Of a stretch of 64,000 nucleotides of DNA, positions 11,979-48,248 are shown piece by piece. The first letter of the stretch is position 1. Each line of letters begins with the position of its first letter. The stretch comes from an uncultured Roseobacter sp. (lineage in GTDB: Bacteria; Pseudomonadota; Alphaproteobacteria; Rhodobacterales; Rhodobacteraceae). The stretch lies in the NCBI RefSeq assembly GCF_947499265.1, contig NZ_CANMNK010000003.1, forward strand, positions 186,001 to 250,000, written 5' to 3'. Below the pieces are notes generated by a model that had not been told where the DNA came from, did not search any database, and was given only the letters and a program-made list of their open reading frames with translations. The position numbers were made by a program, and so were the translations under genes.

Positions 11979-12011
11979 AACGCGCCTCATCAGATCTGCA
12001 CAGGGATCATC

Positions 12012-12845: not shown

Positions 12846-13051
12846 AAAACCGGCGATACCTTGCCGCGTTTCTTGACAAACCCCTGCCAAAAATCTACCC
12901 GAACCAAAGGTGATCCTTTCATCTGATCGAGCAAAACCGAGAGGCCCTGCCATGCGCAGCGCCCGGTCCAGCCAGACAAATCCAAATGAATTTCGACAAT
13001 CCGGCGCAGGGATTTCCTGCACGGTTTCGACCAAATCCATGGGAGGCTGAC

Positions 13052-13984: not shown

Positions 13985-13986
13985 TC

Positions 13987-14358: not shown

Positions 14359-14361
14359 CGC

Positions 14362-14742
14362 ATGGATCTGAGCGACCCTCCCAAGCGCCGCCGCGTTGAA
14401 TCCATCGTCCCGATGATCAACGTGGTGTTTCTGCTGCTGATCTTCTTTCTCATGACGTCTCAGCTTGCAACACAGCCCTTTGACGTCACCCCTCCGGAAG
14501 CATCGATTGAAACCGACGGCGAGGCCGAACCGGTGCTGTTTTTGGATGAAAGCGGTCGGATGTCCTTTGATGGCGTGGAAGGTGAGGCGGCGCTTTTGTC
14601 CCTTGCGGCGCGCTCGAGCGAAATGACGATTATCCAGTTGCGCGCCGACGCGCGTCTGGAGGCGACGCGTCTTGCCCGCATTTTGAGCGATCTCGGCGCA
14701 GCTGGCCTGTCGCGGGTCGAACTCGTGTTGACACCCAAATGA
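14362..14742 (+). CDS. ExbD-family protein 2, with Asn in place of the channel Asp
   Basis: A 126-residue ExbD/TolR family protein, three bases downstream of exbD. The membrane helix reads SIVPMINVVFLLLIFFLMTS, identical in layout to the first copy but with asparagine at residue 20 where the essential aspartate normally sits. The periplasmic part ends LGAAGLSRVELVLTPK, the usual ExbD C-terminal strand, so the protein is intact and not decaying. It may pair with the first ExbD in a heterodimer inside the ExbB ring. Its stop overlaps the tonB start (ATGA). Confidence 0.9.
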   Translation: MDLSDPPKRRRVESIVPMINVVFLLLIFFLMTSQLATQPFDVTPPEASIETDGEAEPVLFLDESGRMSFDGVEGEAALLSLAARSSEMTIIQLRADARLEATRLARILSDLGAAGLSRVELVLTPK

Positions 14743-24055: not shown

Positions 24056-24077
24056 GCAAAGCGAAGGATTATGAAAG

Positions 24078-25820
24078 ATGGATTTTGACAGAGTTTCGGC
24101 CGCAAAACGCAATGCGGAATCTGAATTTCTTAAGCGGCCCGGGGTCGTCGGCGTTGGCGTTGGCTGGAAGTATGTCGGCGGAAGGCGCACAAACGAATTG
24201 GCCATAAGGGTTTATGTGACGGACAAGCGTGATGTTCCGCCGCCCGAACGCATCCCGCCGCAGTTCGCAGGCGTGCTGACCGATGTTATCCAGCGGCGGA
24301 TCAAGCCGATGGTTCTTGCCGCGCCTGTTCCACAGGTGGTGGCTTCGGTGGATGCCAGTTCCTACGATCCATTGGTCGGCGGCATTAGCATTGGAAGCTG
24401 CCGCGAGATCGGCGGCAATGCATTTTCCGGAACGCTCGGATGTCCGGTTGTGGACCGGCAGACCGATGACCCGATGGTTTTGAGCAACTACCATGTACTT
24501 GCGCTGGACCAGATGTTCGCGGTTGGCGATCAGATCGTGCAACCATCGGTTCCCGATGCGGGGGCCTGCCCCGACGATGTCATCGGCACGTTGCAGCGCG
24601 CAGTGCTCGGCGGCCAGATCGACGCCGCTGTTGCCTCAGCTACAAACCGCGAAACACGATGCGAGATCGTCGAGATCGGCGCCCTTGGCGGGACCGGTGT
24701 GGCCGACCTTGGCATGGAGGTGCGCAAACGCGGGCGCACATCGCGCGTGACTTCCGGTACGATCGATGCGCTTGACGTAGCGATCTCCGTCGATTTCGAG
24801 GGTATCGGACCGGTCATGTTCAGCAACCAGATCGAAATCACCTCGGGGGCGCGGTCGATCGCCGTCGAAGAAGGGCTGTTCATTGCGGGCGAATGGACGA
24901 ATGCCCCCTCCAGCAGCAGTGGCGACGTCACGGTTGAGATGAACGCGCAAGGCATCACGGTCACCGGCCCGAACGGTTCGCTTACTCATCTGGGCGCCGC
25001 CAATACAACGTTGCGATACATGATCTACGGAAACGATCATGTCCTCATCCTCGATACGCTGGGATCGATTGGTCCGATCACGCGCCGCGTGACGTCGGTT
25101 GATTTCACCACGGTTCCTCCGTCAGAACGTATGATCCTGACCGGCGGTTCAAGCGGACCAAACATACCCGCCCCCGTGGTTCAGTTCAGTCAGGGCGATG
25201 GATCGGTATTTTTGATCTATAGTTCGTCCGGCACACAGCTTCAGAACCTCGCCATGTACGAAAGCCGCACCGGCGAAGCTATATTCGCCGGTCCGCCGTC
25301 GTTCATGGCAACCGGCGAAACGCGGGGCGAGGCCACCCAGGACTCCCTGATCATTCACTATTCGATCAATGGCGTGAGCAACGAGGCGATCTTTCAGTTC
25401 GCCAATCTGGCGGAGGGCGACCCCTTCTTGCTGCCAGGAGATTCAGGATCGGTCGCGGTGGACAACTCGCGGCGTGTCATCGGGTTGTTGTTTGCCGGAA
25501 ACGAGGAAGAGCGCGACGAAAACGGCACCATAGTCTTAGCCGAGGGGGTGTTTGCCTACGCAAATCACATCGAACCGGTGCTTGAGACACTGGAGGTCGA
25601 CCTGTGCAGGTCCGCGCCGGGTGGCGGTGCAACTATTCCGGGCGGGGGTGGTGGCCTCCCACCGCCCCCGCCGCACGACTGGAAACTCAGTTTGCGAAAC
25701 ATAGCCGCGGACAAGCTCGGGATCGTGCCCGAATTTTCGGTTCGGCTCGATGTTCTGGCGGACAGTTCGGCGCAGAATGCATCGCTGCGATCCAGATTGG
25801 TGGATCTATTAGTCGCCTGA
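24078..25820 (+). CDS. Trypsin-like serine peptidase domain protein with large insertion
   Basis: A 580-residue protein without a signal peptide. An N-terminal domain (residues 1-75; GVVGVGVGWKYVGG, ELAIRVYVTDK) precedes a chymotrypsin-type fold with the triad visible as His139 (VLSNYHVLA), Asp182 (GGQIDAAVA) and Ser456 (LPGDSGSVAVD). Between Asp182 and Ser456, where the family normally has about 80 residues, lie over 270, so residues about 260-448 look like an inserted beta-rich domain. A glycine/proline linker (PGGGGGLPPPPPHDW, about 521-535) leads to a short C-terminal tail. It is probably co-transcribed with the repeat protein upstream. Substrate unknown. Confidence 0.78.
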   Translation: MDFDRVSAAKRNAESEFLKRPGVVGVGVGWKYVGGRRTNELAIRVYVTDKRDVPPPERIPPQFAGVLTDVIQRRIKPMVLAAPVPQVVASVDASSYDPLVGGISIGSCREIGGNAFSGTLGCPVVDRQTDDPMVLSNYHVLALDQMFAVGDQIVQPSVPDAGACPDDVIGTLQRAVLGGQIDAAVASATNRETRCEIVEIGALGGTGVADLGMEVRKRGRTSRVTSGTIDALDVAISVDFEGIGPVMFSNQIEITSGARSIAVEEGLFIAGEWTNAPSSSSGDVTVEMNAQGITVTGPNGSLTHLGAANTTLRYMIYGNDHVLILDTLGSIGPITRRVTSVDFTTVPPSERMILTGGSSGPNIPAPVVQFSQGDGSVFLIYSSSGTQLQNLAMYESRTGEAIFAGPPSFMATGETRGEATQDSLIIHYSINGVSNEAIFQFANLAEGDPFLLPGDSGSVAVDNSRRVIGLLFAGNEEERDENGTIVLAEGVFAYANHIEPVLETLEVDLCRSAPGGGATIPGGGGGLPPPPPHDWKLSLRNIAADKLGIVPEFSVRLDVLADSSAQNASLRSRLVDLLVA

Positions 25821-34280: not shown

Positions 34281-35561
34281 TCAGGATGATCCTTTACTGT
34301 CTGGTTTGTCGTTCTCAATTTGCAGGATGCCTACGAGGATGCCCAGCAGGGTAAAAAAGGCCGTCGTGAGGATAATCAGTAAGGGCTCCAAGGCAACGCG
34401 CTCCAACAAGGAAACCGATAAAACGTTGCTGCTCTCCCTTGTCGCGCCGCTGCCGGGGCGGAGCATTTCAAGGCCCTCCGCTTCAGTCGATCCACTGACC
34501 TGGTACACCGCCCCATCAAAATACACCTGCCCATAGAGCACAGATGTCTCATCTTGTCGGTCGGCGCGGACAATCCCCCTGATGGCGGACCCAGAAGGAA
34601 TTTTGAGCGGCTCACTGTCCAGCCGGTAGATATCCTTGCATCCGGTTCTTTTTTCCTTTGGGCCGAAAAATTGAACGATCTTTTCAATGCAAAAAAACGG
34701 CCGAACAAAGACCTCTACCTCACCCGATACATAGTCAAGATCGCCCGCGACGGTCGTGACAGGACTGGTACGCAATATCCCAAGCCAATCGACCGTTTTT
34801 TCCACTCTTTTTGTAGCGATAGAGCGCCGACCCAGCTCGCCTGGCCCATCAATGTAGGCAGGTTCGGCAAGGGTGGCAAAACCACGGGTCGGAAAACCGA
34901 AGACGCGGGCTGTCAAGCCGTTCATGTTGCATTCAGGAGCAGGCGTGATCTGAATCTCACCTGCCAGAACGATGTCTTCGAGCAAGGGTTGATCGTCCAG
35001 AACCAAGCTGTCGTCCCTGCTCCCCTCCTCTTCCTGACCTTCAATCTTGAAATCGATGCCAGGCAGGGTAAGCGTTGCCAAGTGACCTTGACTCTCTGGT
35101 GGCGACATCGGGTCCGCGAACAACCGCAGCTGTTGAACACCCTTTTCAACACTCAACTCGATGAACGTTTTATTCAACGGGGACAACTCTCCCCAAAAGC
35201 AGTGTTCTGGCGGGTTTGGGACTGCGATCTCGGTAGGACCCATATCGTCCAGTTTCGGAAAATCGCCAGTTCTGACGACGAAAGAATTCCCGATCTTGAC
35301 GTTTACGCCATAAAGCATCATGCGCGCGCGCTCGGGGGAATTAACCTGATACTGTACCCGGCTGGTTTCGGCGCCAATAACGTAAAGCCCACCCTTGGTT
35401 GGTGCAACAGCGAATAAAACAATTGCGATCAAGAGAGGCACAGTCACCAACGAAACGAGGATGGTGAGGATCGGTGTGATACGACAAAAGAAGAATTTTA
35501 CCTTTCGTTGCCCCAAGCACTGTTTCGCCCAGGCGACACGATTTTTTAGCCCGTTTCGCAT
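34281..35561 (-). CDS. Membrane-anchored periplasmic protein, unknown (caspase locus, left arm gene 5)
   Basis: A 426-residue protein with an N-terminal membrane helix (about 28-50, ILTILVSLVTVPLLIAIVLFAV) and a second one near the C-terminus (about 392-415, LLIILTTAFFTLLGILVGIL). The roughly 340 residues between are beta-rich and lie in the periplasm if both ends are cytoplasmic. I recognise no domain. It is the last gene of the five-gene left arm, 33 bases after the preceding gene. The two-helix frame suggests it anchors or transmits a signal from a periplasmic complex. Confidence 0.7.
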   Translation of the reverse strand: MRNGLKNRVAWAKQCLGQRKVKFFFCRITPILTILVSLVTVPLLIAIVLFAVAPTKGGLYVIGAETSRVQYQVNSPERARMMLYGVNVKIGNSFVVRTGDFPKLDDMGPTEIAVPNPPEHCFWGELSPLNKTFIELSVEKGVQQLRLFADPMSPPESQGHLATLTLPGIDFKIEGQEEEGSRDDSLVLDDQPLLEDIVLAGEIQITPAPECNMNGLTARVFGFPTRGFATLAEPAYIDGPGELGRRSIATKRVEKTVDWLGILRTSPVTTVAGDLDYVSGEVEVFVRPFFCIEKIVQFFGPKEKRTGCKDIYRLDSEPLKIPSGSAIRGIVRADRQDETSVLYGQVYFDGAVYQVSGSTEAEGLEMLRPGSGATRESSNVLSVSLLERVALEPLLIILTTAFFTLLGILVGILQIENDKPDSKGSS

Positions 35562-35594
35562 ACTCGTCTCCGGGTGGAATAACTGTGACGCTAT

Positions 35595-36398
35595 CTAGCT
35601 TCTTGGCCCCTGATACTCTGGTGGCAGCGCAAATCGGGCGCGAAACGTCTTCGGCTCTTTGCTTGTTGGTCTGGTCACGATCAATCTGACTTCATACATC
35701 TTGAATGGCCGCATGTTCTTATGCCCCAAAGGAAAAGTGCAATCGTACCCAGACTTTACCCGCTTTGTGGTGGTGCACTCAAAATTCAGCAAGTGATCTG
35801 ACGGTGCAACAGGACCTTGACCGGAAACGCCGAACAATTTGGCCTCCACCGAGGCATTGCCGATTTCGAAAACCGCCAGAAATGTATCCGGGTCTTCGCT
35901 GACCTTCATCGGAACAAAGTACGAGCTGCGACGCTTCAGGCAGTCATATGCCACATAGCTGCGCAGCAGCAGCATGTCTTCACTATAGTCACCGTCAATA
36001 CGGTCGCTGTGCTCTGCTGTAATTTTAACATCTTTGGTTTTGTCGGACCCATTATCAATCAATTCGTCGCCAAAGCCGAAGGCCGAATAAAATCCGTTTA
36101 TCGTCTTTATCTCGGTGCAAATTTTTGCGTCTTTGTCAGTGCTTTCTGGAACGGCAATCTGCACAACATCCAGATCCTTCATTTGAATGGTGTCTTGGTT
36201 TTTGCCATCAAACAATTGAAAAGCTGCAAACAGCGTCTTCATTGAAACGCGGTGCTCAAGTGACCCCGACATCGTTGGATCGCGTTCGTCTATGGTCGCT
36301 TTGAGCTCAATTTCGCCGACAACATCCAAGGTCTTGAATTGTGCAAGCACCGGTGTCGTTGCGAATGCTAAAAACAGTGTGGCAATCAGATATTTCAT
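35595..36398 (-). CDS. Secreted protein, unknown (caspase locus, left arm gene 4)
   Basis: A 267-residue protein with a clear signal peptide (MKYLIATLFLAFATTPVLAQ). The mature part is beta-rich with four or more cysteines (AKICTEIK, YDCLKRRS, FECTTTKR, YDCTFPLG) that could form disulphides in the periplasm. No family recognised. The frame is open 55 codons further upstream, but that would overlap the caspase gene and lose the signal peptide. It starts 10 bases after the caspase stop, so translation is probably coupled. Confidence 0.72.
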   Translation of the reverse strand: MKYLIATLFLAFATTPVLAQFKTLDVVGEIELKATIDERDPTMSGSLEHRVSMKTLFAAFQLFDGKNQDTIQMKDLDVVQIAVPESTDKDAKICTEIKTINGFYSAFGFGDELIDNGSDKTKDVKITAEHSDRIDGDYSEDMLLLRSYVAYDCLKRRSSYFVPMKVSEDPDTFLAVFEIGNASVEAKLFGVSGQGPVAPSDHLLNFECTTTKRVKSGYDCTFPLGHKNMRPFKMYEVRLIVTRPTSKEPKTFRARFALPPEYQGPRS

Positions 36399-36408
36399 CG
36401 TGAGCCTT

Positions 36409-37794
36409 TCAAAAATTGCGAGATTCAAATCCGGATGCAGGCAAGCTGCCGTCGCTACGGCGCCAGGCAAACGTAATATTGCTACCTTCGACAAAATAAT
36501 GTTGTGCAAGCATATCACCAAAAACATCCAGTGAGCGGAAATTAAAGCGTTCGCGGCGCTCACCGGCTGGCTTCACATTTGCCATCTGGATCAGATCGCC
36601 ATTACGAAACGGGGAATCCGGCCCACTTAATGCAACCACAACACCGTTTCGGTCACTGTCAAACGCCAGTTTTTCAATACCAAGGTCCCCAAGCGCCGCC
36701 GCGAGCAAACAGGCTTGGATAGATCTCCCTTCGGCGCTGCTGCCAAGGCGCCCTTCTGACCGCAGCTGCAAAGCTTCCTGTCGATCTTCGACGTTAAATC
36801 GGCACGCGGGCGGGTAGATGCGCCAATCGGCAAATCTTGCACTGTCCACTGCCGTCTTTGAAACGTCAGCCAGGTTAAATTGGCCATTTATCGTGTCGAA
36901 AAGAACATGTGGGATTTGCAGCCCCTGCCGGTTGGGCAGATCGCGCGAAGATGCCGCCCTGGCACTCAACCGTTCAACATCAAGCCGCGCATCCGTAAAG
37001 ATGTTCAGCAATGGCCTGTTTTCCTCCATTTGCGGAATAAACACCCGACCGAAAACAGACAGGAGAAGGTCGGATTCTTCGGCATCCAAACTCAGGTCTG
37101 TCCTATCGCTTTCCGTGTTCTGTACGATGTTTTGTGTTTCATCATTATCGATGTAGTCATAGGCGATCCCGCGGGGGGACGAACTGTACAACACAAGGAT
37201 TTCCGAGACGGTATTGTCAAAATTTGGCTTTGCCGGCGCGATTGATGCATCGCTGACCAAAGGTTCGTCGCCGCAGGCGTTGATGAGCAGAATGATGCGT
37301 GAGGGCCCAGCAAGTGACAGCCGGTCAATCACCCCTTCCAAGTCTATCGACCCCGCGCGCATATCCGCAATCGTATTGTATCGCTCGCCGTCATCAGGGA
37401 CACCAACGAGATAGTTCTTGCCGTTTTCCGAAAACCCATGGCCGTTGAAAATGAAAACAACTTCGGAACCCGCCGTTATCTGTTTTGCCGCGGCATCCAA
37501 ATCATTTTGCAAGCTGGTGTTAGACCGGTCCGCTAGGGACTCGTTCAGCACTTCCCAACCCAAGCGTTCCATCACCTCAGCGTAGCGCACCGCATCATTG
37601 CGCGGGGTGAAGAGATTGAACCGGGAGTTTTCGATGATATCCCCATTTGCCCGCCGCTCGTAGGCGTTGTTTCCCACGATAAAGGCGAAACGATCGGGTG
37701 CGCTCTGTCCCGCAGCAGAAAGGGAGCTCAGCAACAAAGCAGCACAAGCCACCCAAAGCGTGCGCCTTACCCTATCGAACCACAGAACACCCAT
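36409..37794 (-). CDS. Secreted caspase-like (peptidase C14) protein A, with altered active-site Asp
   Basis: A 461-residue protein. A signal or anchor helix (about 12-30, TLWVACAALLLSSLSAAGQ) precedes a caspase p20-like domain (about 35-270): FAFIVGNNAYE, the catalytic histidine in FNGHGFSENGKNYLVG (His119) and the catalytic cysteine in LLINACGDEPL (Cys174). Most bacterial relatives have DACR; here the residue two before the cysteine is Asn, not Asp. In metacaspases that Asp lines the pocket for basic residues, so specificity may differ. The C-terminal 190 residues are unassigned. ATG at 37794 starts five bases after the TAXI gene ends. Confidence 0.85.
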   Translation of the reverse strand: MGVLWFDRVRRTLWVACAALLLSSLSAAGQSAPDRFAFIVGNNAYERRANGDIIENSRFNLFTPRNDAVRYAEVMERLGWEVLNESLADRSNTSLQNDLDAAAKQITAGSEVVFIFNGHGFSENGKNYLVGVPDDGERYNTIADMRAGSIDLEGVIDRLSLAGPSRIILLINACGDEPLVSDASIAPAKPNFDNTVSEILVLYSSSPRGIAYDYIDNDETQNIVQNTESDRTDLSLDAEESDLLLSVFGRVFIPQMEENRPLLNIFTDARLDVERLSARAASSRDLPNRQGLQIPHVLFDTINGQFNLADVSKTAVDSARFADWRIYPPACRFNVEDRQEALQLRSEGRLGSSAEGRSIQACLLAAALGDLGIEKLAFDSDRNGVVVALSGPDSPFRNGDLIQMANVKPAGERRERFNFRSLDVFGDMLAQHYFVEGSNITFAWRRSDGSLPASGFESRNF

Positions 37795-37799
37795 GCCAA

Positions 37800-38810
37800 T
37801 CAGCGCCCGTTCAGCGCCCGCTGGGCGCATTTGTAGACATCCCTGCGATTGCCCGCATTCACCAGATCGACTTCCCGCCATTTCGGGTGGCTGTTGGTGG
37901 TGGGGTCCTGACGTGCAGCCAACCCATCGGCAATTGCGCGGGTCAGACGCTCGATGAGGTCGCAATAGGGATTGTTTTCGTCATAGTCGAAGGTCACCAA
38001 CAGGGCGGAAACAGCCAGCGTTGGCACATCACGAGTGAGCCAAGGATATTGTTTAGGCGTCAGAACGGCGGTTCGATAAGGCGATTCCTGACTGTCCAGC
38101 AGCGTTCCATACTCTGTAATTGGGATCAGTTTGAGTTCCTGGCTTTCCTGAATTGAACTCCCGGTGGAACTGGGCGCACCGGACACATCAAACAGAATAT
38201 CGTAGCCAGCTCCCATCGCGGGCAATCCCGCCTCTGTTGAAAAATTCGTCCAATCCTGGGTCGCGTCTGCATATCCAAGCTGTTCAAACAGCCAGCGCGC
38301 GGTGAGGTTGGTGCCACTTTTTTCGCCACCTGCGTTCACGATGACATCCTGCGTAATGATATCTTCGATGGTATTCAGCTCGCGATTGCGCTCCGCGTAT
38401 ATATGAATTTCTTCACCGTAAAGCGGCATCACCACCTTGATACGGTCGACAATGCTTTCAAGCACACCATTTCCGGCCGCACGAGAACGTAATTGATCCA
38501 GCACATCAGCTTGCACCAAAGCAAGTTGGAAAAACTGTTGTTCGGCCTGCCCTTCGTACCCGATGAGTCGACGCAGGTTTTGAACTGAGCCTTCACTGGT
38601 GACAATTTCAAAGCGAACACCCGGGAGCATTTCAGCTATTTCCTGTGCAAAACGATAATAGGTGCCGTTCTGCGAGCCCGCGGTAATCGTCAGGAAGAGC
38701 TCGTCATCCTGATCACTGGCTGCCAGGCTGGTGGCGGACGCCAGTACCAGCGCCTGCCCCACCAACAAAACGCTGCGCATGAGCCTACGTCCAAAGCACT
38801 TAAATGACAT
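37800..38810 (-). CDS. TAXI-type solute-binding protein without a permease (caspase locus, left arm gene 2)
   Basis: A 336-residue secreted protein with signal peptide (about 1-31). The body has the TAXI-TRAP binding-protein pattern: LTITAGSQNGTYYRFAQEIAE near the start, TSEGSVQNLRRLIG, LALVQADVL and VNAGGEKSGTNLTARWLFE. Such proteins normally feed a TRAP transporter, but none is encoded here; the TRAP genes at 45-48 kb have their own DctP of a different class. Embedded between a coiled-coil protein and a caspase, it may act as a ligand sensor. Start ATG at 38810 gives a normal signal peptide. Confidence 0.88.
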   Translation of the reverse strand: MSFKCFGRRLMRSVLLVGQALVLASATSLAASDQDDELFLTITAGSQNGTYYRFAQEIAEMLPGVRFEIVTSEGSVQNLRRLIGYEGQAEQQFFQLALVQADVLDQLRSRAAGNGVLESIVDRIKVVMPLYGEEIHIYAERNRELNTIEDIITQDVIVNAGGEKSGTNLTARWLFEQLGYADATQDWTNFSTEAGLPAMGAGYDILFDVSGAPSSTGSSIQESQELKLIPITEYGTLLDSQESPYRTAVLTPKQYPWLTRDVPTLAVSALLVTFDYDENNPYCDLIERLTRAIADGLAARQDPTTNSHPKWREVDLVNAGNRRDVYKCAQRALNGR

Positions 38811-38820
38811 CGTATTTCCC

Positions 38821-39648
38821 TTAATCCGCATAAAAATCGGCCTTGTTTGCATAGACCAAACCCAGTTCAGGGTGCACAAGAAGCAGGCTTGAGGCAATAT
38901 CGGTATCGGCATCGATCACGATAACCTGGTCCCCATCTGCTGCTGTTTTACCCAATTCTTCCACACCATCTGCGTCCGCAGTCATCACGACATTTGCTGG
39001 CGCAAGTACCAGCGAAAGCTGCCGTACCTGGCCAAACGGCAGGTCAGATTGGCGTTCCAATTCAAGCGATAACCGCGTGATCGCCTCGACCTGCAACAGT
39101 TTCGCATCAAGTGCGGCCAAAACAGCCGTGAAGTCGGCGAATGCCACCTCAGAAGCCCTTGGGCTGAAGCCAATGGTTTCCTGACGCGCCTGCAAGCGCT
39201 CATACTCCTGCCTGAGGCTGGATATACGGGACGCGAGGCTGTCACGCTGTCCCCGCAACCGCTCAAGTTCCCATTGAAACAGACTGAGCGCATCGGTGCT
39301 TGCGGTCTGTGGATCGCATTGCTCACTGAACTTCGCCCGCTCAAGCGCCGGCAACAAGGCGCAATCCTCAGTTGTGGGCGGCCCAGCAAACCATGCCCAA
39401 ACCCGGGCTTCTTCTTCCTCAACCCGGGCCGCTTGCGCTGCCTTGCGCTCCTCAAGATAGGTCGGCAGATCGAACGTGAGATAGCCAAATTGACAGCCAT
39501 CGAATTTCAATCTTTCGAGCACCGGCGCGGAGGAGCAATCGAAGTTTTCGAAGGGCGATTGGAAACTGTCCAGAAGGCTATCAGCACGCGCACCAAGTCC
39601 CGGTAAAGTAGCAATAATTGCTCCTATTACGCACGCTCGAGTAATCAT
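38821..39648 (-). CDS. Secreted coiled-coil protein with duplicated Cys-flanked motif (caspase locus, left arm gene 1)
   Basis: A 275-residue protein. A signal peptide ends at GLGARA. Then two similar segments appear, DCSSAPVLERLKFDGC and DCALLPALERAKFSEQC, each a helix flanked by cysteines. A heptad-like coiled coil follows at about residues 125-160 (WELERLRGQRDSLASRISSL). The C-terminal part (QVIVIDADTDIASSLLLVHPE) is beta-rich. No family is recognised. It is the first gene of the left arm, facing the right arm across a short promoter region. The ATG at 39648 is preferred over a GTG four codons upstream. Confidence 0.72.
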   Translation of the reverse strand: MITRACVIGAIIATLPGLGARADSLLDSFQSPFENFDCSSAPVLERLKFDGCQFGYLTFDLPTYLEERKAAQAARVEEEEARVWAWFAGPPTTEDCALLPALERAKFSEQCDPQTASTDALSLFQWELERLRGQRDSLASRISSLRQEYERLQARQETIGFSPRASEVAFADFTAVLAALDAKLLQVEAITRLSLELERQSDLPFGQVRQLSLVLAPANVVMTADADGVEELGKTAADGDQVIVIDADTDIASSLLLVHPELGLVYANKADFYAD

Positions 39649-39776
39649 TTTTAAAACCACGTTACAAAGCCATCAAATAATTTGCCGCACCTACTTCTTA
39701 AGAATATTGTAGAGTTAATGAAATTTGACAATTGATTCTTTTATTTCATCCATTTGGGGGGTGGCGTGGATATTTC
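39649..39776. promoter_or_regulatory. Divergent promoter region of the caspase locus
   Basis: A 128-base AT-rich gap separates the two arms. A TTGACA at 39725-39730 could be the -35 box of the right arm. No strong palindrome was noticed. Its short length implies that both arms share control. Confidence 0.45.
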
Positions 39777-40427
39777 ATGTTGAGTCGTCCGGCAGCGATA
39801 AAAAGCATTTTTGCTTTATTGGCTTTTGCGATTCCCGCAACGGCACAACCGGCAATTGAAACCCAGATGTCCTTGCTCGACATGACCGAAATAGATGGCA
39901 TCATCGAAGATATCAGTCAGCAAGTTGAATTACTGCAATTCGGCGCCTCAGCCAATGGGTTGGCACCTGCAACAAGCGTCGAGAGAGATGATGAAACACA
40001 GGTTGCGGCCATCCAGTCGGGGACACGCCTGAGATTAAACCCGCTGTGTTTTTTAGATAGCGAATACGGACATAACACTCCGGCTGAACTGGATGCCTAT
40101 TTCAACAATCTGGAAGATATTGTTGGTAAGGTTTCTGCAACAATGGTCTCGTTCACAGCGTTGAAAGAACAATACGAACAGGGCAATTGCCCCGGTTTCA
40201 TGCAAGGCATGCTCGAGGAGTCACAGTCGCAATTGAGTGTTGTCTCCCGCCCTCAACTCAGCGACATGGTCTACCATCTTGAGACCTGCTGGCCGGATGA
40301 CGGCGTGGCAGAGGCAGATGGAAGCCCGTTGGACATCGACGCGCGGTACGCGCGCGCGCGCCAGAGCCTCAGCAGTTTTCGGATCAGCATGAGAAGCTAC
40401 AGAGAGGCCGCGCAGTGGTGCGAGTGA
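39777..40427 (+). CDS. Secreted protein, unknown (caspase locus, right arm gene 1)
   Basis: A 216-residue protein with a signal peptide (AIKSIFALLAFAIPATAQP) and a helical mature part (MTEIDGIIEDISQQVELLQF, NTPAELDAYFNNLEDIVGKV, SLSSFRISMRSYREAAQWCE) containing four cysteines. No family recognised. The ATG at 39777 is chosen because the 15 extra residues upstream would disrupt the signal peptide. It overlaps the next gene by 13 bases, so the two are translated together. The cysteine-bearing helical character recalls the first gene of the left arm, but no clear homology is seen. Confidence 0.7.
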   Translation: MLSRPAAIKSIFALLAFAIPATAQPAIETQMSLLDMTEIDGIIEDISQQVELLQFGASANGLAPATSVERDDETQVAAIQSGTRLRLNPLCFLDSEYGHNTPAELDAYFNNLEDIVGKVSATMVSFTALKEQYEQGNCPGFMQGMLEESQSQLSVVSRPQLSDMVYHLETCWPDDGVAEADGSPLDIDARYARARQSLSSFRISMRSYREAAQWCE

Positions 40428-41512
40428 TATCGAAACCTCTGAGGGCATTGGAGCGCGCCGCATTGATCGGCCTGTTGCTCCTCCCCACTGCTGCCGTTTC
40501 GCAGCAAACCGATGCGCTACGTGCTATTTCCGGCATGGTGAATGAGGCCAATCGGAAAATCATCGAAATGCAAAAAGCCATCGATGATACAGAAGCCGCG
40601 CTTTCAGCCTGGGAAACCGAACTGCAGCGCTCCACGATTACCGGGCGCAATGCAACGATAAGACAGGCGGGCAGTCCTGTAATTGTCCCGGACGTGGCGC
40701 GCGATATCGCGGATCACCCTTTGGTTCTGGAAGCGGATCGTGGTTGCCAGGACGAATTTACAGCAGTTGCAGTTCCGAACCTGGCGCGCGGTGACGCGCA
40801 GACGAAACAGCGCCTTGTGACATGCGCAAGAAACATCGTCCCCCGCGTGCGTTTCGAACTTCCAATTGAATGTTCCAATCTCTTTTGGGTGATGAACCCT
40901 GATGGTCGCCTGACTTTGGATGGTCACGTCAAGGACGCAGTGGATGCGGAAGAGCTGAAAGCAAAGTTTGGGGCAGCGACGGTCGCCAATGTGATCGAAC
41001 GCCCCTTCCCGGTTTGTTCAGCGCTTGAGGCGCTGGAGCTGCCGCTCAGCTCGAAGGATCGGCCCAAAATACGGATGCTATCCAACAAAACAAGGATCGC
41101 CTTTGAGGAAAGTCTTGCTTTCGAGATAGAGACGCCGGATTTCTACAGCTTTTTCTATCTTGCTTATCTGCAGGCGAACGGGGCCGTGGTCAATCTGGCG
41201 CCGCGGCGGTCTCTGATACGCGAACAGCATCCGCCCAGCACAGTTTTGCGGTTTGGTGACGGTCGCGACGGCAGGCAGACCTATACCGCCTCTGCCCCGG
41301 CTGGGACCGAAGCCATCATCGGGATCGCATCACGCAGTCCAATCGACGCGCTTGAGGCTCTGGAGCGCGGCGCGACAGGTGCATTTGATCGCGACGTGGA
41401 TCATGCCCTTTACCTGCAGCTACTGAGAGAAAGCCTTGAGGACGAGTACAGCCTGTCCCGTGGCCGCCGTGAGATTTCCGCCGAGGTCCTGCACCTCACT
41501 GTTGTTCCCTAA
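40415..41512 (+). CDS. Secreted DUF4384-type protein (caspase locus, right arm gene 2)
   Basis: A 365-residue protein beginning with GTG (40415 or 40418). A signal peptide (about 10-29, ALIGLLLLPTAAVSQQ) is followed by a short coiled-coil-like helix, a middle domain with cysteines, and a C-terminal region (about 225-330) like DUF4384: SNKTRIAFEESLAFEIETPD, FYSFFYLAYLQANGAVVNLA. DUF4384 is often fused to or encoded near caspase-like proteases, matching this locus. It probably presents a beta-sandwich domain in the periplasm. Confidence 0.75.
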   Translation: MVRVISKPLRALERAALIGLLLLPTAAVSQQTDALRAISGMVNEANRKIIEMQKAIDDTEAALSAWETELQRSTITGRNATIRQAGSPVIVPDVARDIADHPLVLEADRGCQDEFTAVAVPNLARGDAQTKQRLVTCARNIVPRVRFELPIECSNLFWVMNPDGRLTLDGHVKDAVDAEELKAKFGAATVANVIERPFPVCSALEALELPLSSKDRPKIRMLSNKTRIAFEESLAFEIETPDFYSFFYLAYLQANGAVVNLAPRRSLIREQHPPSTVLRFGDGRDGRQTYTASAPAGTEAIIGIASRSPIDALEALERGATGAFDRDVDHALYLQLLRESLEDEYSLSRGRREISAEVLHLTVVP

Positions 41513-41551
41513 TTCATTCCCGACTGTGCACACATATAAGGAGAAAATGTC

Positions 41552-42100
41552 ATGCGATCCAAAATACTAGTTTTTGTATTTGCTCTGCTGCTGTTGCCGC
41601 CGCAACAGGCGAGCGCGCAGAGTTTCTTCGACAGCCAGAGCATTATTGGCCAGCTGGTGCCGCAAAACACTGGTCCGACAGTGCGATCCATGTCTTCTGT
41701 CGCCAAACGCGGGATAAATATTCAGGGGCCGTTGCCGCCCACCGTGGATCTTCCATCGGTCAGCCTGACCGTTAACTTCGATCTTGGGTCTGCTAATCTG
41801 ACAACGGACGGTATGATCGCATTGCGTTCTCTCGCAAAGGCCCTGCTGGACCCGCGGCTTGCGCGTATGACGTTTCAGGTGGTCGGACATACCGACGGTC
41901 GCGGTGATGTCGCGTATAACCAAACACTTTCGGAGCGCCGCGCGCAAACGGTCGTGGAGCATTTGACGAGCTTTTACGAAGTGCCCGCCAGCCAGCTCAT
42001 TCCGCTGGGCTATGGCATTTCCCGCCCAATGGACCCGACCAACATCATGAACCCGCTGAACCGGCGTGTCGAAATCATCAATCTTGAACCGCTGTCGTAA
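41552..42100 (+). CDS. OmpA family peptidoglycan-binding protein (caspase locus, right arm gene 3)
   Basis: A 182-residue protein with signal peptide ending at QASAQ and an OmpA C-terminal domain over residues about 68-180. The conserved peptidoglycan-binding residues are visible in VGHTDGRGD and NPLNRRVEI. There is no barrel domain and no lipobox, so it is a soluble periplasmic or wall-bound protein. It lies between the DUF4384 gene and the second caspase gene, with spacing of 39 and 22 bases, and may tether the system to the cell wall. An AAGGAG precedes the ATG. Confidence 0.9.
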   Translation: MRSKILVFVFALLLLPPQQASAQSFFDSQSIIGQLVPQNTGPTVRSMSSVAKRGINIQGPLPPTVDLPSVSLTVNFDLGSANLTTDGMIALRSLAKALLDPRLARMTFQVVGHTDGRGDVAYNQTLSERRAQTVVEHLTSFYEVPASQLIPLGYGISRPMDPTNIMNPLNRRVEIINLEPLS

Positions 42101-42122
42101 TGCGAGCGTAAGGAGAAACCAA

Positions 42123-43613
42123 ATGCACAAACTGAGATTCATTTTTACGGCTTGCATTGTCCTTTTTGCAGCAGCAATGACGGCAAACGCATCAACCGAG
42201 CGCAAAATCGCTTTGGTCATCGGCAATGGCGCATATATGCATGCGGCGCCACTGGCAAACCCGGTCAATGACGCCAAGGCCATGACCTCAAAGCTTCAGT
42301 CTTTGGGGTTTGAGACCTACACGGGATTTGATCTCGATAAGATCGGGATGGAACGGCTCCTGCGCGATTTCAGTCGCGCGTCCCGGAGCAGCGACGTCAA
42401 CATCTTCTTTTATGCAGGGCATGGCATGGCCGTGGAGGGGGTGAATTATCTGGTGCCGGTAGACGCCGCGTTCGCTGACGAAACCTCGCTGGACTTCGAG
42501 GCTGTACCGGTGGATTTCGTAACCCGCCAGATGTCCTTGTCGGATGCTGTCAACCTGGTGTTTCTTGACGCTTGCCGCGACAATCCATTGTCGGCAAACC
42601 TGACCCGTTCGCTGGGCAGCACCAGGTCCGCTGCGGTGCAAAATGGTCTTGCAGAAATGAAAGTGCACACCGGCGGCAAAGGCATGGCCATTGCATTCGC
42701 CACCAGCCCCGGTCAGGTGGCGCTGGACGGCGAAGGTGTGAACTCGCCCTTTACGTCCGCCCTCTTGCGGCATCTGGATGCTGAAAACACTGACATCGCA
42801 GAAGTCTTCACCCGTGTCACCGGTGATGTCTATAACGCCACCGAAGAGCAGCAACGCCCGTGGCTGAACGTCTCCCTGACCGGTCCGGTAATGCTGAACC
42901 CTGTCAACCGTGTGCAGCCGATCCAGAACGACGTGACCGCAAGCGCAAATGCAACCGCCACGGCCCCGGTTGCAGGTCGGATGCTGGAGGAGCAGAAGAT
43001 GCTGTTCGATCTGGCCCGTGACACCGGCGATGCGGAGGACTATCGCGCCTATCTTGAGAGCTTCCCGCAGGGGCTCTATGCCAACAACGCCCGGCGCATG
43101 ATCCGGAAGCTCGAAGGCTCGGGAAATGGTGGGTTTGAGGTCGCCGCCGCCCGTACGCAACAACCCGCAGTGAACTCAGCGCAAAACTCCAGAAGCGCTG
43201 CAATCAACGAGGCCGGTCCTCTGGTACTGCCCATATCGGCTTCTTTGCGCAGTTTGCCCGCGAACCAGGCAACCGAAGCCCAGCTCGATCTGGATCGGAC
43301 ACTCCGGGGCAACATTCAGGCGCGCTTGAATGCAACCGGCAATAACGTTGGCGGCGTTGATGGGAAGTGGGGCGGAAAAACCCGCACCGGCATCACGAAT
43401 TGGCAGCTTAGCAAAGGGCTGACACCGACCGGCTACCTGAACCGCCCGCAGTACCAGCTATTGGTCTCGGAAACCGAGGGGCGCTACACCCCCTATGTTG
43501 CACCGCAAGCGACGGCGCGGAAGGGCACGAGCAGAAAGTCGAACAATAACAACAATGGCAATCTTGGTGCCGCATTGCTCGGCGTTGCGATTGGCACGAT
43601 TTTGGCCAAATAG
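42123..43613 (+). CDS. Secreted caspase-like (peptidase C14) protein B
   Basis: A 496-residue protein. Signal peptide (about 1-24) is followed by a caspase p20-like domain (about 26-260): RKIALVIGNGAYMHAAPLAN, catalytic histidine in FYAGHGM (His100) and catalytic cysteine in FLDACRDNP (Asp149, Cys151). TSPGQVALDGEGVNSPFT is the usual closing motif. A helical linker (YRAYLESFPQGLYANNAR) resembles the repeat found after many bacterial caspases. A peptidoglycan-binding-like domain (about 395-452, VGGVDGKWGGKTRTGITNWQ) follows, and a C-terminal hydrophobic helix (LGAALLGVAIGTILAK) ends it. AAGGAG precedes the ATG. Confidence 0.92.
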   Translation: MHKLRFIFTACIVLFAAAMTANASTERKIALVIGNGAYMHAAPLANPVNDAKAMTSKLQSLGFETYTGFDLDKIGMERLLRDFSRASRSSDVNIFFYAGHGMAVEGVNYLVPVDAAFADETSLDFEAVPVDFVTRQMSLSDAVNLVFLDACRDNPLSANLTRSLGSTRSAAVQNGLAEMKVHTGGKGMAIAFATSPGQVALDGEGVNSPFTSALLRHLDAENTDIAEVFTRVTGDVYNATEEQQRPWLNVSLTGPVMLNPVNRVQPIQNDVTASANATATAPVAGRMLEEQKMLFDLARDTGDAEDYRAYLESFPQGLYANNARRMIRKLEGSGNGGFEVAAARTQQPAVNSAQNSRSAAINEAGPLVLPISASLRSLPANQATEAQLDLDRTLRGNIQARLNATGNNVGGVDGKWGGKTRTGITNWQLSKGLTPTGYLNRPQYQLLVSETEGRYTPYVAPQATARKGTSRKSNNNNNGNLGAALLGVAIGTILAK

Positions 43614-43694: not shown

Positions 43695-44384
43695 TCACCC
43701 CGCCTTCAGGGTGAATTCCGCCTCAAATGCCTTTTCGCCGGGAGGGGTGAAGATCACCGCCCGGCTGTTTGGTGCGCGTCTGGCCCAGCCGCGGCTTTCA
43801 ATTTGAGAAAACATCGCGCGCCCCAGGCTGCCTGCCAGATGGGACCGGCGGGCGCTCCAATCCAGGCATTCCTTGCACAGGGGCGACTTTGCGGAACGCA
43901 GGGTCGCGACATCAATCCCAAACTGCTCGGCAAAAGCGCTGCCGCTTTCGGTTAACAGCAATGCCTCGTCCGCAGTTTCCAGAAACCCGCGCGAGATGAA
44001 GCTGTCAAACATCCGAATGCCCATATCACCCGCGAGGTGATTGTAGCAGACGCGTGCCTTGCGCAAGGAGGCGTCCTTGGGGCCCGTGCGGGTCCGCAAA
44101 TGCCCCGATTTGGCCGCCAAGCCCATCAACCCTTCCAGAACCTGCGCCACGTCGTCATTGGCCAGAGAGAAATACTTATGCCGTCCCTGCTTCAGCGGTC
44201 TCAGCAATCCGCCCGCGTCGAGCTTGGCCAGATGAGAGCTTGCGGTCTGACTGGTGATCCCCGCCTCTGCGGCCAGTTCGGTCGCGGTCAGCGCCTTGCC
44301 GGTCATCAACGCCGTCAGCATGTTGGCGCGCGCGGGATCACCAATCAGCGCGGCGATGCGGGCGATATCAGGGCCTTCTTTCAT
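43695..44384 (-). CDS. ArsR family regulator with C-terminal extension
   Basis: A 229-residue protein. The N-terminal 100 residues are an ArsR winged helix (IARIAALIGDPARANMLTAL, AGITSQTASSHLAKLDAGGLL, RHKYFSLANDDVAQVLE). The C-terminal half is longer than usual and has cysteines (ARVCYNHLAG, PLCKECLDWS) that could sense redox or metal. This two-part layout is known in alphaproteobacterial regulators near NIPSNAP or monooxygenase genes. It is divergent from such a pair, and a perfect inverted repeat touches its start. Confidence 0.9.
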   Translation of the reverse strand: MKEGPDIARIAALIGDPARANMLTALMTGKALTATELAAEAGITSQTASSHLAKLDAGGLLRPLKQGRHKYFSLANDDVAQVLEGLMGLAAKSGHLRTRTGPKDASLRKARVCYNHLAGDMGIRMFDSFISRGFLETADEALLLTESGSAFAEQFGIDVATLRSAKSPLCKECLDWSARRSHLAGSLGRAMFSQIESRGWARRAPNSRAVIFTPPGEKAFEAEFTLKAG

Positions 44385-45138: not shown

Positions 45139-45155
45139 CGCGGGACTACCCCGCG
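45139..45155. terminator. Short GC-rich hairpin between convergent genes
   Basis: CGCGGG-ACTAC-CCCGCG forms a perfect six-pair stem. It overlaps the stop codon of the TRAP large permease and follows the monooxygenase stop by nine bases, so it may act in both directions. No T-run is present. Confidence 0.45.
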
Positions 45156-46546
45156 AGGGAGGGCAGGAACAGGACGATGCCCGGGAAGGCCACCAGCAGC
45201 GCGATGGTGATGGCATCAGCGACAAAGAAGGGCGTGACCCCTTTGAACACATCCTGCACGGTCAGATCATCGCGCACGCCCGCCACCACAAAGCAGTTGA
45301 GCCCGATGGGTGGTGTGATCAGACAGAACTCCGCCATCTTGACCACCAGAATGCCAAACCAGATGGCACACATCGGGCCAGACATGCCAAAGGCGCTGTC
45401 GGCGGCGCTGACCATCTCACCGCCATTCAGCGCCATGACCGCCGGGTAGACCACAGGCAGCGTCAGGAGCAGCATCCCGATCGCATCCATGAACATGCCC
45501 AGCACCGCGTAGGCCAGCAGAATGCAGATCAGGATCAGCATCGGCGACATTTCCAGCGAAGTGATCCAATCGGCAAAGGCTTCTGGCAATTCGGCGAACC
45601 CCAGGAAGCGCACGTAGATCAGCACCCCCCAGATGATCGAAAAGATCATCACCGTCAGCTTCGCCGTGTCCAACAGCGCATCCTTCAGCTGTGCCCATCG
45701 CATGCCACGATAAAGCGCCATCAGGAAGATGATGAAGGCCCCAATGGCGCCGCCCTCGGTCGGGGTGCCCCAGGCATCGCCAAAGGGGTTGTAGACAAAG
45801 AAGATGATGATCACGACCACGGCGAGAATGGGCAGTGCCGGTGGCAGGGATTCGAGCCGCTCGCGCCAGGTGAAGCCGCCAACAGGTGGCCCCACCGTCT
45901 TGAAGATCACGGCAATGCCGATGATCAGCGCGGCATAGACCACAGCGGAGAACATGCCCGGCAGGAACCCTGCGAGCAGCAATTTACCCACGTCCTGCTC
46001 CACAATGATCGCATAGATCACCAGAATGGCGGAGGGCGGGATCAGCGAGGCCAGCGTGCCGCCAGCCGCGACAACGCCTGCTGCAAACTGCTTGTTGTAG
46101 CCGATCTTCAGCATCTCCGGGATGGCGATGCGGGCGAAAACGGCTGCCGTCGCGACCGACGCGCCCGACACAGCGGCAAACCCCGCCGTGGCAAAGACGG
46201 TGGAGACCGCGAGCCCCCCCGGCACCCAGGCGATCCAGCGCTTGGCGGCGGTGAACAGTGCCGTGGTGAGCTTGGCGTAATAGGCCAGATAGCCGATCAG
46301 GATGAACACCGGGATCAGGCTGAGCACCTGCGCCGACACTTTGGAGTGCGGCGTCAGCCCGGCCACCTTGACGCTGATCTCAACCGCTTTCCAGAAGCGC
46401 TCCGGATCATAGTCGAAGCCGTTCCAGCGCAGCCACACGAGGCCCACAAAACCCGCCAGCCCGGCGGCAAAGGCCACGCGCATGCCCAGCACGACGAACA
46501 TCAACAGGCCACCGCTGACCCACAATCCAATCTCAATGGGTTCCAT
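45146..46546 (-). CDS. dctM: TRAP transporter large permease (DctM)
   Basis: A 466-residue membrane protein with about twelve to fourteen segments and DctM motifs: FATAGFAAVSGASVATAAVF near residue 115, GTLASLIPPSAILVIYAI near 165 and LTLPVVYPAVMALNGG near 365. It is the sodium- or proton-driven channel of a TRAP importer. Its start overlaps the dctQ stop by one base (46546). The family length is usually about 430, so this copy is slightly long and carries an extra N-terminal loop (residues 35-75). Confidence 0.93.
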   Translation of the reverse strand: MEPIEIGLWVSGGLLMFVVLGMRVAFAAGLAGFVGLVWLRWNGFDYDPERFWKAVEISVKVAGLTPHSKVSAQVLSLIPVFILIGYLAYYAKLTTALFTAAKRWIAWVPGGLAVSTVFATAGFAAVSGASVATAAVFARIAIPEMLKIGYNKQFAAGVVAAGGTLASLIPPSAILVIYAIIVEQDVGKLLLAGFLPGMFSAVVYAALIIGIAVIFKTVGPPVGGFTWRERLESLPPALPILAVVVIIIFFVYNPFGDAWGTPTEGGAIGAFIIFLMALYRGMRWAQLKDALLDTAKLTVMIFSIIWGVLIYVRFLGFAELPEAFADWITSLEMSPMLILICILLAYAVLGMFMDAIGMLLLTLPVVYPAVMALNGGEMVSAADSAFGMSGPMCAIWFGILVVKMAEFCLITPPIGLNCFVVAGVRDDLTVQDVFKGVTPFFVADAITIALLVAFPGIVLFLPSLAG

Positions 46547-47175
46547 CAGTCCGCCCCATCCAATGCTTCGGCCTCAAGACGCGCTTGTTCCGCAACGCTG
46601 AGGTTCAGAGGCACGGCCACCGGGTTTTCCAGCCCCAAGATCAGTGCGCGCCCGTAGCCCCAGGCCTGCAGGATCAGCCGCAGGCACAGCACTGCAAAGG
46701 CGATGGGCACCACCAGTTTAGAGGGCCAGATCGGCAGACCGATGTCGATGGAGCTGTCACGGCTGCATAAGGGCCGCGCGCAGTCAAAGGAGCGGTCGAA
46801 GTGATCCCAGGCACCCCAGGTCAGCGCCACGATCAGCACCAGGATCAGCAAAACCGAAACCAGTTCGAAAAACCACAGAACGCGCCCCTTGAGCGCGCTG
46901 ACCAGCATGTCCATGCGCACATGAGTGCCATCCCGCTGGACGTAGGACACGCCCATGATCGCAATGATCGGCATCGCCGCTTCGATGTAATCGACGTAGC
47001 CAGCCATGGGTGAAGCAAAGAATTTGCGCCCGGTGACCGAGTAGGCCGCCAGAAACATCAGCGAAAAGATTGCAACCCCGCTGAGCAGAGCGCAGAATTT
47101 TTCGATTGGTAACAATGCACGGTCCAGCCGACTGAGCAGACTGGAATCTTCGAGCACCGCAGCGGAACCTGCCAT
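46546..47175 (-). CDS. dctQ: TRAP transporter small permease (DctQ)
   Basis: A 209-residue membrane protein with four segments. FCALLSGVAIFSLMFLAAYSVTGR is the first, IMGVSYVQRDGTHVRMDML is the conserved middle and PIAFAVLCLRLILQAWGYG the last. It pairs with DctM. A loop of about 25 residues (CARPLCSRDSSIDIGLPIWP) between helices three and four is normal for the larger DctQ forms. Confidence 0.92.
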   Translation of the reverse strand: MAGSAAVLEDSSLLSRLDRALLPIEKFCALLSGVAIFSLMFLAAYSVTGRKFFASPMAGYVDYIEAAMPIIAIMGVSYVQRDGTHVRMDMLVSALKGRVLWFFELVSVLLILVLIVALTWGAWDHFDRSFDCARPLCSRDSSIDIGLPIWPSKLVVPIAFAVLCLRLILQAWGYGRALILGLENPVAVPLNLSVAEQARLEAEALDGAD

Positions 47176-47200
47176 CGCCCTACCCCCTTTATTATTGAAC

Positions 47201-47224
47201 GGGCCGCCCCTTTAAGGACGGCCC
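47201..47224. promoter_or_regulatory. Hairpin between dctP and dctQ (attenuator-like)
   Basis: GGGCCG and CGGCCC form a perfect six-pair stem with a 12-base loop in the 56-base gap between the binding-protein gene and the permease genes. Such stem-loops commonly lower permease expression relative to the binding protein and stabilise the upstream transcript. Confidence 0.55.
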
Positions 47225-47231
47225 ATTGGCT

Positions 47232-48248
47232 TTAGCTGCCGCCTTTGGCTTCTTCGAGTGTTTTGGCGACCAGATCATAAAGTTCCTGACCGGGGAGGCC
47301 CTGAGCTTCCATATCGGCAATCCACTGATCGCGAATTGGATCTGCGGCCTTGGCACGGAATTCCGCGATCACCTCATCCGAGATCTCGACCTTCTGGACG
47401 CCCTTTTCCTCCAGCACCGAGTCCCAGCGCTTGAGTAGCTCGCCATAGTTGGCCAGATAGTGATCCAATGCTTCGGCCACCGAACTGTCGAGCGCTTCCC
47501 GCTCTGCATCGCTCAGCGCCTCATAAGCGTCGATGTTCACCACAACGGGGCAGTTCACCGTGCCGGGGTTGAGGTTGGCGGTCCACCAATCGGCCTGGTT
47601 GATCGTGCCGAAGCTCAGGTGCGCGTGCTGGGCAAAGGCGACCGTGTCCACAACGCCGCCTTCCATCGCCTGATAGGCTTCGGTCGCAGTCACCGAGGTG
47701 GGCACACCGCCTACTGCTTCAAACGCCTGGCCGAGCCCACCCGTGGCGCGCACCCGCATGCCGTCGAATTCGGCCAGTTCATCGCGAGGATCGCCGGTAC
47801 CCACAAGGTTGTACTGCGGCATCGGTGAGGTCATCAGCAGCTTGGCATTCCACTGCGCCATCTCTTCGGCCGCGGCGGGGTGCGCATAGACCGCTGAGGA
47901 GACGGCCACTTCCTGCTCCAGGTTCTCAACCCCCAGGAACGGCAGTTCCAGCACAGTGATCACGCGGTTCTTGTCGCGGTGATAGCCCGCACAGAACTGC
48001 GCCATTTCAAACGCGCCGATGGAGATGCCATCGAGGTTTTCGCGGTTCTTTGACAGGCCACCATAGCTGATGTTCATGGTGAATTCGCCGCCCGTCTTTT
48101 CCGAGACCAGCTCGGCAAGCTTTTCAACATGCTCGGTGAAAGCACGACGTTTGCCCCAGACAGAAACATTCCATTCTGTTGCAGCGGCTTCCGATACGAA
48201 TGCAAAGCTGATCGCGGCGACGGCGGCGCCGGAAAGATATTTGTTCAT
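47232..48248 (-). CDS. dctP: TRAP transporter solute-binding protein (DctP)
   Basis: A 338-residue secreted protein with signal peptide (about 1-22) and DctP motifs: KTGGEFTMNISYGGL, LELPFLGV, FDGMRVRATGGLG with the ligand-binding arginine, and ATEAYQAMEGGVVDTVAF. It captures an organic acid or similar solute for DctQM. The substrate is not evident; the divergent acs gene suggests carbon-source uptake, as an inference. The first gene of the operon. Confidence 0.93.
   Translation of the reverse strand: MNKYLSGAAVAAISFAFVSEAAATEWNVSVWGKRRAFTEHVEKLAELVSEKTGGEFTMNISYGGLSKNRENLDGISIGAFEMAQFCAGYHRDKNRVITVLELPFLGVENLEQEVAVSSAVYAHPAAAEEMAQWNAKLLMTSPMPQYNLVGTGDPRDELAEFDGMRVRATGGLGQAFEAVGGVPTSVTATEAYQAMEGGVVDTVAFAQHAHLSFGTINQADWWTANLNPGTVNCPVVVNIDAYEALSDAEREALDSSVAEALDHYLANYGELLKRWDSVLEEKGVQKVEISDEVIAEFRAKAADPIRDQWIADMEAQGLPGQELYDLVAKTLEEAKGGS

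Follow-up and report, generated by a model that had tools for sequence, protein, structure and literature searches.

The 64,000-nucleotide stretch of DNA from an uncultured Roseobacter sp. analysed here, which we call the window, carries at positions 34281-43613 two divergent operons whose nine genes encode, among others, two caspase-like proteases and a TAXI-type solute-binding protein. The locus raises the question of whether the two operons make up one system and in which compartment of the cell such a system would work. Our analysis gives good support to the view that the nine genes are one unit and that their predicted products are exported, and with some hesitation we prefer the reading that they form a single mobile circuit of proteolysis that is gated by a ligand and stays within the envelope. 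The combination of these nine genes and its all-or-none conservation are what is new here. A search of the open-access literature, with subscription papers and preprints outside its range, found no description of the locus.

All nine open reading frames (ORFs) were confirmed as two divergent operons separated by 128 bases. An earlier note on this DNA had the two operons facing each other; they in fact stand back to back and are transcribed outward. Counted from the gap, the leftward operon has the order gene 5, 4, 3, 2, 1 and the rightward operon the order gene 6, 7, 8, 9. Spacing within each arm is 5-39 bases, and genes 6 and 7 overlap. Several starts in the program-made ORF list are too early, the likely ones being 36398 (gene 2), 37794 (caspase A), 38810 (TAXI), 39648 (coiled coil), 39777 (gene 6) and 42123 (caspase B). 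The features of the locus are as follows.

34281..35561, minus strand: gene 1, a predicted inner-membrane protein with hydrophobic stretches at about residues 21-64 and 380-416 flanking a large domain; four invariant Cys
35595..36398, minus strand: gene 2, predicted to be exported, with exactly four invariant Cys; present at 5/5 loci
36409..37794, minus strand: gene 3, caspase A, predicted to be exported; dyad H119/C174, an extra invariant Cys pair (C331, C362) and a weakly supported C-terminal PDZ-like domain
37800..38810, minus strand: gene 4, TAXI-type solute-binding protein, in which Y51, S75, Q100 and E133 are the equivalents of VcGluP Y45, S75, Q93 and E125
38821..39648, minus strand: gene 5, a coiled-coil protein predicted to be exported, with four Cys; present at 5/5 loci
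39649-39776, no strand: intergenic gap of 128 bases separating the first start codons of both operons
39777..40427, plus strand: gene 6, predicted to be exported, with four invariant Cys and of no known family; present at 5/5 loci
40415..41512, plus strand: gene 7, a DUF4384-like protein predicted to be exported, with four invariant Cys; distant kin in 41 other genomes
41552..42100, plus strand: gene 8, an OmpA-domain protein predicted to be exported, without Cys; D115 and R130 invariant
42123..43613, plus strand: gene 9, caspase B, predicted to be exported; dyad H100/C151, PG_binding_1 near residues 396-445 and a Gly-rich hydrophobic C-terminal end

Pfam supports five of the nine products: OmpA, TAXI and both caspases score over their cut-offs and DUF4384 under its own. 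None of genes 1, 2, 5 and 6 matches a Pfam family above cut-off. Of the gene 5 proteins, only the homologue from a further uncultured Roseobacter shows a C-terminal SH3-like segment, by a match to SH3_3 (E-value (E) 3.1e-4, below the cut-off).

Conservation of the nine genes as one unit

With the window proteins as tblastn queries, all nine genes were found again, in identical order and divergent layout, at four further loci: in Shimia sp. SK013, in Shimia sp. Alg240-R146, in an uncultured Roseobacter and on the Tateyamaria omphalii plasmid pDOK1-4-5, where the locus spans the start of the plasmid record. With the window included, the set is complete at 5/5 loci, order and orientation being the same throughout, much more than chance would give. 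Identity to the window proteins ranges from 24.5% (gene 1, uncultured Roseobacter) to 77% (gene 8, Shimia), and gene 1, the most divergent, was still found at all five loci (24.5-30%). All nine genes are under purifying selection, with ratios of nonsynonymous to synonymous substitution rates (dN/dS) of 0.020-0.239 between the two Shimia genomes. On the T. omphalii plasmid, as recorded, caspase A, TAXI and caspase B have interrupted reading frames, through either decay or sequencing error.

The locus is a rare nine-gene set of marine bacteria. Of the 19 genomes in the window's genus, two are matched by gene 5, a marker of one arm, and the same two by the profile of gene 7, a marker of the other. 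The gene 6 profile matches 2/25 genomes of the Shimia genus, together with one of 394 family genomes and one of 385 class genomes, each time only the window's own. A caspase A query of 198 family genomes gave some match in 57, the best outside the window's genome scoring 63 bits vs 1024. A scan of the GTDB species collection with the TAXI profile, which relies on short patterns and misses distant kin, confirmed four loci, three of them with all nine genes; the remaining one is a TAXI protein of 24% identity in a cyanobacterial bin. Two queries of 72,556 plasmid records, one with gene 5 and one with gene 7, both led to the T. omphalii plasmid alone. A gene 5 query of genome contigs confirmed nothing, in a scan that detects close relatives only and missed gene 5's own relatives present there. 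No half-locus was seen where both arms were queried, in the genus and, partly, in the family and the plasmids.

These counts bear directly on the explanation that two unrelated operons are neighbours by chance. The divergent layout is all that speaks for it, and a promoter scan lends no support to a shared promoter, but the same order at 5/5 loci and four sites refutes it, and we regard it as scarcely credible. The scan of the gap gave one sigma-70-like match, on the minus strand, vs 0.5 expected, which is not above chance, and a bidirectional promoter was dropped as a candidate on that ground. Whether the arms are ever neighbours elsewhere was the check on the view, put forward in the earlier note, that they act as one system; complete loci were found each time and the view came through. 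That the nine genes are one unit is well supported.

Predicted export of the products

Export is likewise a well-supported prediction. In a simple hydropathy test an N-terminal hydrophobic core of at least 1.77 was present in 44/44 protein rows (nine families, four to five loci each) vs 5/30 mostly cytoplasmic neighbour proteins, the controls being read over their first 55 residues and the test rows over 70, which slightly favours the test. The Cys content lends independent support and is as disulphide-bonded periplasmic proteins would show. Genes 2, 5, 6 and 7 have exactly four Cys after residue 25 at 5/5 loci. In 4/4 intact copies caspase A has its catalytic Cys plus the invariant pair, and the mature part of caspase B has the catalytic Cys only; the OmpA protein has none. 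Across the loci the counts are 2, 2, 2 and 3 for TAXI and 5, 4, 4, 6 and 4 for gene 1. Odd Cys counts occur in 14/30 control proteins. In none of the nine products did we recognise a cytoplasmic domain. The earlier claim that all nine are exported was checked in this way against the possibility of false signal peptides, and hydropathy and Cys counts left it unrefuted.

The two caspases

Caspase A matches Peptidase_C14 (PF00656, cut-off 21.4) at E 3.2e-10 and 40.5 bits, and caspase B matches it at E 2.2e-42 and 145.8 bits; two of the four copies of caspase A match PF00656 at E <= 1. The motifs NGHGF (SGHGF in the uncultured Roseobacter) and NACGD of caspase A are found in 4/4 intact copies, as are AGHGM and DACRD of caspase B. 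Both caspases retain the catalytic His-Cys dyad and are predicted proteases. Caspase B also matches PG_binding_1 (E 1.3e-8). Its Gly-rich hydrophobic C-terminal end (GAALLGVAIGTILAK-like) is kept in the four intact copies and may touch a membrane.

Searches with sequence profiles gave MALT1 as the best match of caspase B, the C-terminal part of which matches an L,D-transpeptidase, and gave no solved structure at E <= 0.01 for caspase A. In fold, the AlphaFold model of caspase A is closest to the MALT1 paracaspase: of its 39 matches at E <= 0.001, the 34 best are to MALT1; the MALT1 caspase domain alone (3v4o) has a template modelling score (TM-score) of 0.71 by target length, at 14% identity. 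Caspase A ends in 100 residues with predicted strands and a helix in PDZ-like order, and we treat a C-terminal PDZ-like domain as a lead.

For a tree of caspases 59 rows were gathered, three fragmentary or doubtful ones were dropped and 56 were used. Caspase A and caspase B fall into two separate clades, each with 100/100 support, and we therefore rejected a recent duplication of caspase B as the source of caspase A; caspase A attaches to a long branch, which the program warns may be false. Caspase B sits beside a Mesorhizobium ciceri caspase (100/96), whose gene also adjoins an OmpA gene. The earlier note overstated how unusual exported caspases are, as such proteins encoded near OmpA are not rare in Alphaproteobacteria. 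At other loci we saw one to three exported caspases near OmpA, adhesin or two-partner-secretion (TPS), Ser/Thr kinase or PP2C genes.

The TAXI protein

The TAXI protein matches NMT1_3 at E 9.1e-20 and NCBIfam TIGR02122 at 97.3 bits, over the cut-off of 84.35. It was aligned to VcGluP (8s4j; chain position plus 28 gives the residue number of the paper), and the equivalents of VcGluP Y45, S75, Q93 and E125 are invariant in 4/4 TAXI rows; at the two key ligand positions, Y45 and Q93, the T. omphalii fragment agrees. According to the mutant data of the VcGluP report, glutamate affinity was 213-fold lower in Y45A and 990-fold lower in Q93A, and 1.3- to 14-fold lower in the other four mutants (PMC11574862). 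Since the key residues are kept, the pocket looks alive, and the ligand may be glutamate or a relative. The same note called this protein wall-anchored; we found nothing that ties it to the wall, the wall binders being the OmpA protein and the C-terminal domain of caspase B.

Neither the five loci nor the flanks of the four sites have a conserved permease gene, and because the unit lacks one a transport function of the TAXI protein is unlikely. DctM-, DctQ- and DctP-like TRAP genes do adjoin the locus at window 45146-48248. The region matches 19/19 genus genomes, nearly all of them without the locus, so TRAP transport with these neighbours was dropped, and they are probably not part of the nine-gene system. 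The same evidence weighs on an explanation in terms of envelope housekeeping or nutrient scavenging, by which the caspases would trim surface proteins or release peptides and the TAXI protein would collect the freed acid. The kept ligand residues and the export of all parts suit such a role, but the missing permease does not, the rarity of the locus argues against housekeeping, and the TRAP genes at 45.1-48.2 kb are found whether the locus is present or not. We consider this explanation improbable.

The right arm and its relatives

The OmpA domain of gene 8 (PF00691, E 3.6e-16) retains D115 and R130 at 5/5 loci, which we take to be the peptidoglycan-binding Asp/Arg pair of such domains. Gene 7 matches DUF4384 at E 1.1e-4 and 22.6 bits, under the curated cut-off of 27. 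Its profile finds DUF4384 proteins in 42/394 family genomes, the window's own and 41 others. Around these 41 kin we counted ExbB at 37, ExbD at 37, OmpA at 29, a caspase at 28 and genes of the type VI secretion system (T6SS) at 30, all lower bounds with several contigs short and labels taken from annotated plasmid loci. The kin module reads hyp1-ExbB-ExbD-ExbD-DUF4384 with caspase and OmpA in Rhodobacterales (annotated examples are in Leisingera and Phaeobacter), and no description of it was found in the open-access literature. Nowhere in the 41 kin loci does any of genes 1-6 come out as best match. This makes the right arm a distant relative of this T6SS-linked envelope module, without its defining features.

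In principle, the locus could itself be a T6SS-related envelope module minus the ExbB/ExbD motor, in which the DUF4384 protein, the OmpA protein and caspase B would regulate contact-dependent killing or protect from it, the left arm being an add-on. The company kept by the 41 DUF4384 kin favours this explanation, however queries for ExbB, ExbD, Tss, kinase and TPS gave no match near any nine-gene locus, and VipB/TssC was found in just one of the four nine-gene genomes tested, on contigs other than that of the locus. In addition, caspase B clusters with the Mesorhizobium caspase and not with the T6SS-linked clade. The locus as a T6SS part was rejected on the absence of VipB from 3/4 genomes and of Tss matches at the loci, and we give the broader explanation little credence.

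The window's own ExbB/ExbD matches lie only at 13.4-14.5 kb, inside a TonB iron cluster. This apparent iron-uptake cluster (window 2619-15623) has two TonB-dependent receptor-like ORFs and ABC transporter-like, AraC-like and ExbB/ExbD/TonB-like ORFs, all named by eye. Also by eye, window 22637-25820 encodes a 472-amino-acid protein made up of GDLLLRDxxG-type repeats and, after it, a 580-amino-acid protein with a protease-like segment.

Genomic sites and mobility

The loci occupy four different sites, and the flanks (4-10 kilobases (kb) per side) share no similar ORF pairs. No tenth gene is common to these flanks, and the conserved block is therefore exactly nine genes. DNA similarity to three related genomes begins at window 43719-43755, about 100-140 bases beyond the last stop codon, and to the left of this point the 6-14 kb fetched gave no match to them. 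Colinearity of the two Shimia loci extends across 21 kb (88.9%). The distribution is patchy and mobile, as the genome counts given above (2/19, 2/25, 1/394 and 1/385) and the plasmid-borne copy of T. omphalii indicate. The G+C content of the window locus is 0.541 vs 0.589 in the flanks, but low G+C was dropped as a sign of transfer because the other three loci measured show no such difference. A viral origin was also set aside, the TAXI profile having given one 23%-identical TAXI on a viral contig and the DUF4384 profile none. The contig that encodes this TAXI-like protein, IMGVR_UViG_3300036781_000418, is a 342-kb member of a viral collection.

A rare, all-or-none, mobile locus that is plasmid-borne in T. 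omphalii could serve anti-phage or anti-predator defence, with caspases that would wreck the envelope upon infection. Caspases serve as effectors in some known defence systems, and one PADLOC caspase model matches caspase B (E 1.4e-8; PADLOC-DB version from 2023). The other PADLOC matches, however, are partial ZorB matches to the OmpA domain, so that two of the nine proteins match single models. A known PADLOC defence system was dropped as a candidate when the full set of components was not found, and a Zorya-like motor is not apparent, with no ZorA model and no MotA/ExbB match among the nine products. We recognised no obvious defence gene in the flanks that were read, which were not scanned with PADLOC, and the locus has no cytoplasmic sensor and no nuclease. 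Defence of this kind seems to us a slim prospect.

A putative proteolytic circuit in the envelope

The circuit that we hesitantly prefer builds on the single unit, the export signals, the kept dyads and ligand residues and the wall-binding domains to which the sequences point. The working parts of all nine products would lie outside the cytoplasm. Gene 1 would sit in the inner membrane, while the OmpA protein and caspase B would grip peptidoglycan, so that the assembly would reach across the periplasm. The TAXI protein would close on a small ligand, which to judge from the kept residues is probably glutamate or a related acid, and the closure would be passed on to caspase A. Through its PDZ-like end caspase A would bind a partner; it might then activate the wall-held caspase B, or both might cleave envelope proteins. 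The presumably disulphide-bonded orphans (genes 2, 5 and 6) and the DUF4384 protein could be scaffold, inhibitor or substrate.

We infer ligand control, the TAXI protein as trigger, which caspase acts first, the substrate, the output and the role. Proteins for binding a small molecule and the wall, a membrane protein and two proteases come together in the envelope and no cytoplasmic domain was recognised, and for this reason a path from ligand to TAXI to caspase A to caspase B to an envelope target is the simplest; its first and last steps, the ligand and the envelope target, are offered as suggestions. The likely role would be a response to envelope attack or to an outside change, and the output would be damage to the own cell or its surface proteins. 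Rarity, mobility and T6SS-linked kin lead us to favour a role in conflict, with envelope attack, a phage or a rival as the occasion.

Several points weigh against this circuit. No interaction, cleavage or phenotype is known for any of the nine products, and no gene fusion or co-fold connects the TAXI protein with a caspase. VcGluP Y200 and M201 are not retained in the TAXI protein, and the ligand may therefore differ. The model of caspase A has moderate quality, with a mean predicted local distance difference test score (pLDDT) of 64.3, and that of gene 1 is of no use (mean pLDDT 40.4). The PDZ matches are not significant: the top match, DegP-like, has E 0.16, and PDZ_2 was matched in 1/3 copies, also at E 0.16. 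PADLOC gives no defence-system match beyond single-domain matches, and the export comparison leans slightly towards the test rows, as noted above. A stronger version of the circuit is a self-contained switch for death or shedding in the envelope, in which an extracytoplasmic small molecule bound by the TAXI protein would start a cascade of two caspase steps on the wall, all of it outside the cytoplasm. We think this version unlikely, although it deserves more credit than the scavenging, T6SS and defence explanations.

Comparison with known systems

If the proposed circuit is right, bacteria have a caspase pathway that is triggered by a ligand and works entirely in the envelope, where ATP is not at hand; we know of no regulated caspase pathway located there. 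A broader module, seemingly not yet described, also emerges from the work; in related genomes it links caspases with ExbB/ExbD and T6SS. Like the nine-gene locus, this ExbBD-DUF4384-caspase-OmpA module of Rhodobacterales has an exported caspase, OmpA and DUF4384 close together. The module, however, has a proton-channel pair and often T6SS, whereas the nine-gene locus is without ExbB/ExbD. The OmpA protein of the module carries a YceI-like domain in the one copy scanned, and caspase B lies outside the module's T6SS-linked caspase clade.

MALT1 is a cytoplasmic eukaryotic signalling protein, and its likeness to caspases A and B is one of fold only. In Pseudomonas YfiBNR signalling a membrane protein reportedly receives its input from a wall binder of the OmpA type and a partner in the periplasm. 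The output of that system, through YfiN, is said to be cytoplasmic, whereas no cytoplasmic domain was recognised in the nine products.

The nearest description that we found is a 2012 survey of bacterial caspase homologues, which reports signal peptides, OmpA neighbours or peptidoglycan-binding domains (Asplund-Samuelsson 2012, PMC3501461). The metacaspases and orthocaspases treated there resemble caspases A and B in the Peptidase_C14 fold, the His-Cys dyad and a possible cell-surface site. In its general coverage of domains and operons the survey describes neither a TAXI partner nor a fixed nine-gene unit. If the proposed circuit is right, the present locus would offer a tractable nine-gene test case for the roles of the many exported caspases of Alphaproteobacteria, a question that its discussion left open (PMC3501461). 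The TAXI proteins of TRAP systems, as described in the accounts of VcGluP (PMC11574862) and Bordetella TAXI-GltS (PMC12344293), belong to the same family as gene 4 by TIGR02122, and the residues that correspond to Y45, S75, Q93 and E125 are kept. Unlike them, gene 4 has no permease in its unit, and its constant partners are caspases and envelope proteins.

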